Below, one piece after another: positions 46,609 to 49,730 of a stretch of DNA of 64,000 nucleotides. The notes under the pieces were generated by a model. It was not told the DNA's origin. It worked only from the letters and a program-made list of their open reading frames with translations, and did no database searches. Location: assembly GCF_014280875.1 (NCBI RefSeq), contig NZ_JACLAL010000001.1:124001-188000 (forward strand), in the 5' to 3' direction. The translations under genes were made by a program, and so were the position numbers. The stretch comes from Paenirhizobium daejeonense (GTDB taxonomy: Bacteria; Pseudomonadota; Alphaproteobacteria; Rhizobiales; Rhizobiaceae). How positions within the stretch are numbered: position 1 is the first letter of the stretch; every line of letters starts with the position of its first letter.

Positions 46609-46633
46609 CGCGCCGCGACAAACTTGCGGCGCG
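46609..46633. terminator. Hairpin after ribF, possible terminator
   Basis: CGCGCCGC and GCGGCGCG (46609-46616 with 46626-46633) pair around a 9-base loop, followed by CCTCTTCCTTTTCG. It is a plausible, imperfect terminator for the ribF transcript. Confidence 0.5.
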
Positions 46634-46675
46634 CCTCTTCCTTTTCGCGGCAAAACCGCTTAAAGAACCGCCACC

Positions 46676-46738
46676 ATGAACAGGGTTCGGCTGACCAAGT
46701 CCCTTCGAATTATTGGCCCGGCCTTTCGCGCTCTTTGA
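46676..46738 (+). CDS. Candidate ileS leader peptide with tandem isoleucine codons
   Basis: A 20-codon ORF, ATG at 46676 to TGA at 46738, reading MNRVRLTKSLRIIGPAFRAL. Codons 12 and 13 are both ATT (46709-46714), notable in a GC-rich genome that prefers ATC. The ribosome binding site is weak (AAAGAA). The ORF runs into a long hairpin at 46717-46757 and lies 109 bases before ileS. The layout resembles amino-acid attenuation leaders; this is inference, and the short ORF could be chance. Confidence 0.35.
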   Translation: MNRVRLTKSLRIIGPAFRAL

Positions 46739-46762
46739 AAGAGCCGAAGGGTCCGGGATTTT
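46717..46762 (+). terminator. Long terminator-like hairpin upstream of ileS
   Basis: CCCGG/CCGGG at the base, then CCTTTCG/CGAAGGG (one G-U pair), then GCTCTT/AAGAGC, give an 18-bp stem with single-base bulges. It is followed by ATTTT. The 5' arm starts three bases after the tandem Ile codons of the candidate leader peptide, so a ribosome stalled there would mask it. It could instead be a simple ribF terminator. Confidence 0.55.
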
Positions 46763-46847
46763 GGCGCTTCCCTCGCGAGCGCTACCGCCACCTTGAATTC
46801 CAAGACATTATTCGCGACCCGCTCCGGGCGCCTTCGATGGCAAGATC

Positions 46848-49730
46848 ATGACCGATACCGTTGAAAAAGTTGACTACTCTTCCACTCTCTACCTGCCCCA
46901 GACCGATTTCCCCATGCGCGCCGGCTTGCCGCAGAAGGAACCGGAAATGGTCAAGCGCTGGCAGGAGATGAGCCTTTATAAAAAGCTGCGCGCTTCCGCC
47001 GCCGGCCGCGAGAAGTTCGTCCTGCACGACGGACCTCCCTATGCCAACGGCAACATCCATATCGGCCACGCGCTGAACAAGATCCTGAAGGACGTCATCA
47101 CCCGTTCCTTCCAGATGCGTGGTTTCGACGCTAACTACGTTCCCGGCTGGGACTGCCACGGCCTTCCGATCGAATGGAAGATCGAGGAAAAGTATCGCGA
47201 GAAGGGCAAGAACAAGGACGAGGTTCCGGTCAACGAATTCCGTCAGGAATGCCGCGACTTCGCCGCCAACTGGATCAGCATCCAGTCACAGGAGTTCAAG
47301 CGCCTCGGTATCGAGGGCGACTTCGAAAACCCCTACACCACGATGAACTTCCATGCTGAAGCCCGCATCGCCGGCGAACTCCTGAAGATCGCGAAAAGCG
47401 GCCAGCTCTATCGCGGCTCCAAGCCGGTCATGTGGTCTGTGGTCGAACGCACTGCACTGGCGGAAGCCGAAGTCGAATATGCCGACGTCGAAAGCGACAC
47501 GATCTGGGTGAAGTTCCCGGTCGTGGAGGGTGCCGAAGATCTCAAGGGCAACTCCGTCGTCATCTGGACTACCACGCCCTGGACCATTCCGGGCAATAGG
47601 GCCATCTCCTTCTCATCGCGCTTTCCCTACGGCCTCTATGAGGTGGAAAGCGCCACGAACGATTTCGGCCCCCAGCCGGGTGAGAAGCTGATCTTCGCGA
47701 CCCGCCTCGCCGACGAGGCGGCTGCCAAGGCCAAGCTCACGTTGAAGTTCCTGCGCGACGTTGCGCCGGAAGAGCTTGCCGCGATCACCGCAGCCCACCC
47801 GCTGGCCGATCTGGGCTACGATTTCCCGGTTCCGCTCCTTGACGGCGATCACGTCACCGACGATGCGGGCACCGGTTTCGTGCATACTGCGCCGGGCCAC
47901 GGCCGCGAGGACTTTGATGCATGGATGGCGTCTGCCCGCGAACTGGAAGCGCGCGGCATCTCGTCCCGCATCCCCTTCACCGTCGATGACGCAGGCTTCT
48001 ACACCGCCGATGCTCCCGGCTTCGACGGTGCCCGCGTCATGGACGACAATGGCAAGAAGGGCGACGCCAACGACCGCGTCATCAAGGCGCTGATCGCTGC
48101 CGACAAGCTCTTTGCCCGCGGCCGCCTGAAGCACTCCTATCCGCATTCCTGGCGTTCCAAGAAGCCGGTCATTTTCCGCAACACGCCGCAGTGGTTCGTC
48201 TACATGGACAAGGACCTCGGCGATGCGACGACGCTGCGCACCCGCGCACTGGCCGCCATCGACGACACGCGCTTCGTGCCCGCCGGTGGCCAGAACCGGC
48301 TGCGCGCCATGATCGAGACGCGTCCGGACTGGGTTCTGTCGCGTCAGCGCGCGTGGGGCGTTCCGATCGCCGTCTTCGTCAATGAAAATGGCGAAGTTTT
48401 GCTGGACGATGCCGTCAACGCCCGCATCCTTGAAGCCTTTGAGGCCGAAGGCGCCGATGCATGGTTTGCCGACGGCGCCCGCGAGCGCTTCCTTGGCGCC
48501 CGCGCTTCGGAAGGCTGGACCCAGGTCCGCGACATTCTCGATGTGTGGTTCGACTCCGGTTCGACCCATTCATTCGTACTGGAAGATCGCCCCGACCTGA
48601 AATGGCCGGCCGATGTCTATCTCGAAGGCTCCGACCAGCATCGCGGCTGGTTCCACTCGTCGCTGCTCGAAAGCTGTGCGACGCGCGGACGTGCGCCTTA
48701 TAATGCGGTCGTCACTCATGGCTTCACCATGGACGAGCAGGGCCGCAAGATGTCGAAGTCGCTCGGCAATACCGTGGTCCCGCAGGACGTCATGAAGGAA
48801 TCGGGCGCGGATATCCTGCGTCTCTGGGTCATGACCACCGACTACTGGGAAGACCAGCGCCTCGGCAAGACCATCATCCAGACCAACATCGACGCTTATC
48901 GCAAGCTGCGCAATACGGTCCGCTGGATGCTCGGTACGCTCGCCCACGACACCGGCGAGGAAATCGCCCTTGCCGACATGCCGGAACTGGAACAGCTGAT
49001 GCTGCATCGGCTGGCGGAGCTCGACAAGGTCGTGCGCGAGGGCTACGACGGCTTCGATTTCAAAAAGATCACCCGTTCGCTGATCGACTTCTCCAACGTC
49101 GAGCTTTCGGCCTTTTATTTCGACGTTCGCAAGGATGCGCTCTACTGCGATGCGCCGTCGAGCCTGAAGCGCCGCTCGGCGCTTGCCGTGATCCGCAAGC
49201 TGTTCGATTGCCTCGTCACCTGGCTTGCGCCCATGCTGCCTTTCACCATGGAAGAGGCATGGCTGTCGCGCAATCCGTCGGCCGTCTCTGTGCATCTGGA
49301 GCAGTTCCCGTCCGTTCCGGCCGAATGGCTCAACCCTGCTCTGGATGAGAAGTGGGAAAAGATCCGCAAGGTCCGCACGGTCGTCACCGGCGCTCTGGAG
49401 ATCGAGCGTCGCGAGAAGCGTATCGGCTCCTCGCTGGAAGCCGCACCCGTCGTTCACGTCGGCGACGCTGAACTGTTCAAGGCGCTGGAAGGTCAGGATT
49501 TCGCAGAGATCTGCATCACCTCGGCCATCTCCGTCGTTGCTGATGAAGGTCCGGTGGATGCCTTCCGCCTCGCGGAAGTGGGCAAGGTTTCGGTCGAGCC
49601 CAGGCTTGCCGAAGGCCGCAAATGCGCCCGCTCGTGGAAGATCACGCCGGACGTGGGTTCGGATCCGGAATACCCGGATGTTTCCGCCCGCGATGCGGCA
49701 GCGCTGCGTGAACTGGCTGCGCGCCATTAA
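46848..49730 (+). CDS. ileS: Isoleucyl-tRNA synthetase
   Basis: A 960-residue class I synthetase. HIGH is at residues 71-74 ([12 protein letters not shown]), the KMSKS loop at 634-638 ([10 protein letters not shown]), and the editing domain is recognised by [18 protein letters not shown] and [17 protein letters not shown]. The C-terminus has lost most of the zinc-binding Cys pattern of bacterial IleS ([13 protein letters not shown], with Ser where the next Cys should be, and no Cys pair afterward), which I recall as a feature of alphaproteobacterial IleS. It is preceded by a possible leader peptide and hairpin, so Ile-dependent attenuation is conceivable. Confidence 0.97.

Follow-up and report, generated by a model that had tools for sequence, protein, structure and literature searches.

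In the window, that is, the whole stretch of 64,000 nucleotides analysed here, a short leader lies in the gap between ribF and ileS, both genes being confirmed by family models. The features are listed in Table 1. A preliminary description of this locus had proposed an isoleucine-responsive attenuator, composed of a 20-codon ORF running into an 18-bp hairpin, with ATTTT and then 85 nt to ileS. This layout was confirmed by translation of the ORF and by the MFE fold, in which the hairpin has a 3-nt loop and one unpaired base in each arm, and the ileS ATG begins 85 nt past ATTTT. Folding of a 261-nt region was better than that of 200/200 dinucleotide shuffles (z -3.8). CCCGG begins 11 nt from the first base of the CGA codon. 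The ORF holds codons for the amino acid of the proposed regulated gene, as in an attenuator, and its translation is predicted from the sequence. A small second hairpin (about 46759-46786, GGCGC...GCGCT) lies right behind the putative U-tract, and similar sequence is found in many relatives.

Table 1. Features at the ileS locus (positions in the window)
Feature	Position	Strand	Remarks
Leader ORF, 20 codons, ATG...TGA, MNRVRLTKSLRIIGPAFRAL	46676..46738	+	stop codon sits in the hairpin loop
CGA-ATT-A core: CGA codon (proposed P site), ATT specifier codon (proposed A site)	46706..46712	+	
Putative attenuator hairpin, 18 pairs	46717..46757	+	MFE fold
Hairpin arms: outer 5' arm CCCGG; 3' arm GGTCCGGG	46717-46721; 46750-46757		3' arm with unpaired T
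ATTTT, short U-tract of putative terminator	46758..46762	+	
TTAAAG, weak candidate -10	46660..46665	+	partly conserved block 5' of the leader ATG
ileS, isoleucine--tRNA ligase, proposed regulated gene	46848..49730	+	TIGR00392, above its cut-off

By IleS, Ciceribacter sichuanensis and Rhizobium cremeum are the closest relatives that bear a name. The exact pattern occurs once in the genome to which the window belongs, at ileS; a stem pattern has five matches there and looks real at ileS only. No Rfam match at gathering was obtained for the window and seven loci searched, and a further Rfam scan returned three matches (E 0.46 to 4.4), all under their gathering scores.

It had also been considered that the hairpin is simply the terminator of ribF, with the ORF occurring by chance. 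Its location in the ribF-ileS gap and the ATTTT behind it are in keeping with that explanation. However, a separate, perfect GC-rich hairpin at 46609-46633, followed by CCTCTTCCTTTT, lies 5' of the leader and is likely the better candidate for the ribF terminator; a consensus terminator scan requiring 5 T of 8 calls it and misses the hairpin at 46717-46757. Moreover, the element is present where the upstream gene is not ribF (L025, by eye), and also before leuA and genes of a family labelled ACT-like. A mere ribF terminator is therefore very improbable.

Conservation and distribution of the element

The best 80 loci of an IleS scan, which are Rhizobiaceae by title or relatives, were compared. 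CGAATTA-NN-[GA]GCCCGGC and the 3' arm GGTCCGGG are present in 80/80 of them, 131-241 nt upstream of ileS. Among 69 distinct 75-nt segments from these loci, CGAATTA and GCCCGGC display zero variation, but the two bases 3' of CGAATTA vary, indicating that the second codon of the Ile pair is not conserved. The tandem Ile codons of the preliminary description are thus present in the window (ATT ATT, 46709-46714), but the second is Ile, Ser, Thr or Met in relatives; the key of the leader is the single ATT after an invariant CGA. Both codons are rare in the first 900 ileS codons of the 80 loci, where CGA represents 0.8% of 4975 Arg codons and ATT, correctly described as uncommon, 4.5% of 3556 Ile codons. 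In an Ectorhizobium quercum assembly, ileS and its leader occur on two contigs (L041, L042) that are identical in the compared stretch, either a duplication or an assembly artefact.

An upstream ATG shares its frame with the CGA codon in 48/48 distinct sampled ileS elements, in comparison with 3 and 4 for the other frames; among the 80 closest loci, which have 67 distinct elements, this holds for 67/67 (other frames, 1 and 7). The 48 elements comprise 15 from the window's own genus and 33 from outside it; 45 were gathered by a pattern fixing CGAATTA and CCCG, and L189, L212 and L222 by relaxed patterns, while L236 (TCG-ATT-AGC) was excluded from the frame count. The frame was also kept in 61/61 "pattern" elements, a biased set hand-picked from inspected loci, so that the 48-element set is the fairer test. 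As the patterns behind the frame sets fix the core, invariance of CGA and ATT was judged on a mismatch-tolerant scan of ileS loci. There, no element has a synonymous Arg codon and one (L189) has ATC, while CGC and ATC are far commoner than CGA and ATT in ileS. A stop codon lies 6-13 codons past CGA, in or near the hairpin, in 161/176 elements. The weak Shine-Dalgarno sequence of the leader, pointed out earlier, proved typical: among 176 elements, 30 have an SD-like string, weak ones included, ahead of the ATG closest to CGA.

These codon data bear on the explanation that a nascent peptide with the motif R-[ILV]-x-x-P arrests ribosomes on an amino-acid cue. Arg, a branched-chain residue and Pro do recur at fixed spacing, though the later search patterns impose them. 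The lack of any synonymous Arg codon and the single ATC argue against selection on the peptide, given how common CGC and ATC are in ileS, and the two residues between [ILV] and P vary. An arrest peptide is accordingly considered improbable.

For the wider distribution, ileS loci from relatives and the class were sampled regardless of the motif; 158 of 159 were usable, L255 being dropped for want of an ileS match. In the 450 nt upstream of ileS, the sense-strand match closest to CGAATTANNNGCCCGG has 0 mismatches in 43 loci, 1 in 10 and 2 in 5, in comparison with 0, 0 and 1 loci, respectively, on the opposite strand of the same 158. The window's genome and its genus account for 23 of the 43 exact loci. 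In the other 135, 20 exact matches and 12 elements with 1-2 mismatches, real by inspection, amount to about 32/135; L189 and L236 have 3 mismatches each and still look real. About 100 of these 135 ileS loci have no element (103 by the analyst's criterion), which counts against the attenuator reading. On this sampling, the element is widespread but patchy, and it is not limited to rhizobia. The preliminary description would have been refuted by a lack of conservation of the ORF or Ile codons; instead, ORF, frame, one Ile codon and hairpin are kept throughout the 80 closest loci and, with gaps, in the class at large. By pattern alone, CGAATTANNNGCCCGG occurs in 78/385 class genomes and CGAATTANNNNCCCGG in 110/199 genomes of the order, of which some matches are chance, since reversed-pattern controls also match, far less often. 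Matches inside rho (e.g. L118, L132, L271 and L287, recognised by eye) were set aside as chance.

Specifier codon and downstream genes

The middle codon behaves as a specifier in the loci compared: CGA-CTT-A (Leu) goes with leuA, and CGA-ATT-A with ileS or an ACT-like gene. A class search for CGA-[C/G/T]TT-A with GCCCGG yielded 53 matches, about equal to the reversed-pattern control, so that most are chance and the evidence lies in the association of CTT with leuA. Among 12 CGACTTA matches, 8 lie upstream of leuA (L323, L328, L329, L341-L345; leuA verified by family model in L329 and by eye in the others), with Leu-rich leaders such as MTIRTDTGLLGLRLIGPAS, and none of the 12 lies before ileS. 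The remaining ones are found in the tandem leader of L336 and at three loci without a leader ORF (L312, L315, L340). Conversely, of 70 CGAATTA loci (L111-L140, L270-L309), 37 precede ileS, 16 precede an ACT-like gene, 15 are chance or unclear and two related ones (L300, L301) precede something else; leuA was seen downstream in 0/70. The element CGAATTAGC of L300 and L301 has stem and leader; in L300 the ORF next downstream, inspected by eye, resembles a kinase and is no obvious branched-chain gene. In L336 and L337, a single ORF carries both CGA-CTT-A and CGA-GTT-A (RLT..., RVTGPV) before a small ACT-like gene, the Val unit being supported by these two loci of one family.

In a codon-agnostic search of 115 genomes (CGA-any codon-A-NNN-GCCCGG with a CCGGG partner), which gave at least 150 rows, 146 distinct matches were used after two nested rows were removed and two duplicates merged. 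Among the matches listed, NTT occurs in 23/42 with a stem score of at least 8 (20 ATT, 2 CTT, 1 GTT) and in 0/104 with a weaker stem; ATC, CTG and GTC are absent from the 42. The other 19 of these 42 carry 16 other codons, which counts against the attenuator reading; L350 was inspected and the rest were judged chance by eye. L350 itself, CGA-AAT with a 12-pair stem, has no recognisable gene start close by. Of 28 CGATTTA (Phe) matches, 15 were inspected: 10 have no in-frame ATG, and L310, L319, L325, L331 and L332 are not, by eye, a leader and stem before an aromatic gene. Of 13 CGAGTTA (Val) matches, 11 were inspected, and only L336 and L337 look real.

The codons 5' of the core follow the specifier. 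Within up to eight codons 5' of CGA, Ile leaders contain 15.0% Ile (178/1183), and nine Leu units contain 34.8% Leu (23/66) and 1.5% Ile. The upstream Ile codons of Ile leaders (n=197) are ATA 75, ATC 74 and ATT 48, and CTA makes up 13/24 Leu codons of Leu leaders; in Rhizobiaceae ileS, ATA is 0.6% and CTA 0.5%, the leader counts also including other families. The use of rare synonyms suggests that decoding matters here, and not the peptide or the shape of the RNA. RNA shape is central to another explanation, that of a structured RNA to which a protein or tRNA binds directly, with CGANTTA as a 7-nt ligand site and an incidental ORF. Invariance at the nucleotide level, including the wobble bases and the A after the specifier, would be expected of such an RNA. 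The frame kept in all 48 sampled elements, the Ile or Leu enrichment with rare ATA and CTA codons 5' of the core, and a specifier that matches the downstream pathway are at odds with it, leaving little probability for direct binding.

The ACT-like proteins, of about 90-140 aa, are encoded just 3' of the element. The loci are L112, L114, L115, L126, L133, L135/L351, L138, L272, L273, L277, L283, L288, L292/L353, L298/L354, L299, L302, L336/L352 and L337. Genes and elements were first assigned by eye, and the ACT-like gene was later confirmed by a profile of 11 of the proteins, which has a downstream match in 16/16 loci, eight of them outside the profile (E 9e-35 to 3e-13); in L117, a weaker match (7e-10) is located after the element and ahead of ileS. 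The members scanned match nothing in Pfam or NCBIfam with an E of 0.01 or lower. Against PDB, the profile shows a faint likeness to small subunits of acetolactate synthase, which make up all of the five top matches (best E 0.075), and the family is possibly a branched-chain regulator, "ACT-like" being only a label. The ACT-like gene is followed by ilvA (threonine deaminase) in L288 and by cimA (citramalate synthase) in L112; both names derive from the top match to a fragment, the first 100-120 residues, which is why the scores fall short of the cut-offs for whole proteins. Two tandem Ile elements lie 182-200 nt apart before the ACT-like gene in L299 and L302, and another tandem Ile pair, as pattern matches only, is at G072:C1:64974 and 65174.

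In nine of the ACT-like loci (L133, L135, L138, L272, L273, L292, L298, L336, L337), the leader ORF meets no stop codon within the hairpin and continues until it overlaps the start of the next gene. These run-on ORFs extend 87-102 nt past CGA, as does that of L323 before leuA, which does not overlap its next gene. The overlap suggests possible translational coupling in the nine loci, perhaps with a different sign of control.

Hairpin, promoter and proposed mechanism

Outside Rhizobiaceae, stems of at least 9 pairs form in 70/94 elements, in comparison with 28-29% after 3' parts were swapped between elements. The inner pairs covary, with CG, GC, UA, AU and GU all used, whereas the outer four are invariant, partly because they are fixed by the search pattern, and say nothing about pairing. 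In Rhizobiaceae, the corresponding figures are 75/82 and 83-84%, the arms being too conserved there for the swap test to apply. Behind the stem, at least 3 T within 6 nt after GGTCCGGG are found in 81/82 distinct Rhizobiaceae elements, the window included, while 71/85 distinct tails outside the family have 0-2 T in 6 nt. With the U-tract mostly missing elsewhere, intrinsic termination is plausible in the window and not general. TTYGYC follows the stem outside Rhizobiaceae in 21/85 tails against 8.0 in shuffles, but the shuffle maximum is also 21 and this post hoc motif is not relied on.

These tails bear on a further explanation, namely that the same sensor has another output, such as Rho-dependent termination, pausing, processing of the RNA or translation of the gene that follows, at least outside Rhizobiaceae. 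The T-poor tails favour it, and the nine ACT-like loci, where the leader reads through the hairpin and overlaps the next start, fit translational coupling; the T-rich tails of Rhizobiaceae, window included, speak against it there. Another output, which would be compatible with the attenuator reading, is regarded as possible but somewhat unlikely.

The promoter consensus is CTTGAC-N16-19-CTATAT-like and is scored out of 12. Outside Rhizobiaceae, a score of at least 8/12 ending 3-16 nt 5' of the leader ATG is found in 68/89 elements versus 14% of shuffles, and at least 9/12 in 44 versus 2.3%. In 35 of these 44 the promoter ends at a distance of 7-11 nt from the ATG, a spacing from which a leaderless or near-leaderless mRNA would result. 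By this scoring, a sigma-70-like promoter abuts the leader ATG outside Rhizobiaceae. In Rhizobiaceae leaders, the same consensus finds no support (6/76 versus 9.4% of shuffles), which counts against the attenuator reading.

The leader is read here as a ribosome-mediated attenuator that would report charged tRNA-Ile to ileS, with a probability of about 0.8. The attenuator proposed earlier upstream of ileS gains support from the ORF, its frame, one Ile codon, the conserved hairpin and the change of specifier with the downstream gene. As an anatomy, a leader-peptide attenuator with invariant CGA and exchangeable NTT specifier is well supported by conservation, frame, specifier swap and stem covariation; from it we infer the regulation, that is, stalling, occlusion, termination, the sign of control and the wobble rationale. 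The short leader would be transcribed, perhaps from the leader AUG or a few bases 5' of it, and a ribosome following the polymerase would translate it. When Ile-tRNA is scarce, the ribosome would stall at the core, CGA occupying the P site and ATT the A site, and would cover CCCGG with its leading edge. The base of the hairpin would stay open and transcription would continue into ileS. When Ile-tRNA is plentiful, the ribosome would reach the stop codon in the loop and depart, the hairpin would close and, with the U-tract, transcription would terminate in Rhizobiaceae. CGA is read via I-A wobble and ATT via G-U wobble, and these slow codons, together with upstream ATA, could make the pause sensitive to Ile-tRNA.

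The hairpin is placed where a stalled ribosome can interfere, as spacing, blocked fold and covariation indicate. The leading edge of a ribosome lies ~15-16 nt from the first P-site base, and with ATT in the A site the footprint spans 16 nt, from CGA through CCCGG. When it is blocked in the fold, five outer pairs are lost while the inner stem persists, at -23.4 kcal/mol in comparison with -40.2 kcal/mol unblocked. Loss of stem pairs beside a U-tract should prevent intrinsic termination, and as the footprint removes these pairs, termination should fail. Against the attenuator reading, the inner pairs can still form under a stalled ribosome, and a ribosome at the stop codon blocks the hairpin even more, until released. 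The window's U-tract is short, most elements outside Rhizobiaceae have none, and the hairpin is passed over by the terminator scan. Furthermore, only one codon is invariant, in contrast to the codon runs of classical attenuators, and the fixed wobble bases and the A after the specifier are not predicted by simple codon sensing.

A broader reading, tentative and given somewhat less than even odds, is that CGA-NTT-A serves the ribosome as a modular sensor of branched-chain amino acids. I-A wobble in the P site would make decoding of the wobble-read NTT in the A site hypersensitive to the matching aminoacyl-tRNA, a single codon would replace a run, and a one-base change would retune the sensor among Ile, Leu and Val. 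The sensor would then be to the ribosome what the specifier codon is to the T-box, acting on leaderless mRNAs in a large part of the Alphaproteobacteria. If so, ileS, leuA and, via the ACT-like gene, ilvA and cimA would come under one type of codon-keyed RNA switch, which would occur in the well-studied genera Sinorhizobium (L083), Rhizobium (L105) and Agrobacterium (L071). The invariant CGA raises the question of whether a P-site wobble pair tunes A-site sensitivity to charged tRNA.

Comparison with known systems

T-boxes, a family included in the Rfam library, bind tRNA directly, without an ORF, and their specifier codon matches the amino acid of the regulated gene. The latter is the likeness to the element studied here; in contrast, the specifier in the window lies within a conserved reading frame, and neither the window nor the seven loci searched gave an Rfam match at gathering. 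Translational T-boxes have been described before ileS in Actinobacteria (PMC1262725). No description of the CGA-NTT-A leader element was found in the open-access literature searched; Vitreschak 2004, on proteobacterial attenuators, may report some of the leuA leaders. Like the E. coli trp leader and the Caulobacter ilv leader (PMC4117421), the element sets the regulatory codons of a short ORF directly against a hairpin, ahead of a gene that serves the same amino acid, and stalling would favour read-through. Unlike them, the element has a single invariant pair of rare codons, CGA-NTT, in place of a codon run, no antiterminator helix was identified in single-sequence folds of the window, and the ORF is probably near-leaderless outside Rhizobiaceae.

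The S. meliloti trp leader carries a run of Trp codons. Named peTrpL / rnTrpL and located before trpE, it is a leaderless leader peptide with an attenuator (PMC10117765). A leader peptide with attenuator in Rhizobiaceae is thus shared, and it differs in being a Trp leader before trpE; ileS is absent from the main text of that source. Leaderless mRNAs are frequent in Caulobacter (PMC4117421). A figure legend of the same ribosome-profiling paper names CCNA_03934 of Caulobacter crescentus "ileS leader CDS", used there as a negative control in a plate assay; it is likewise an ileS leader CDS in an alphaproteobacterium, likened here by name, not by sequence. As outlined in PMC8632094, uORFC-8-2 is a uORF attenuator candidate upstream of cysS in Rhodobacterales, which shares with the present element a position before an aminoacyl-tRNA synthetase gene in Alphaproteobacteria. 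It differs in having Cys codons in tandem, a pair of stems and a U-run throughout, and in serving a single gene, with no CGA-NTT core in the description given there (PMC8632094). In the window, the core is CGA-ATT-A and the gene is ileS, instead of tandem Cys codons before cysS.
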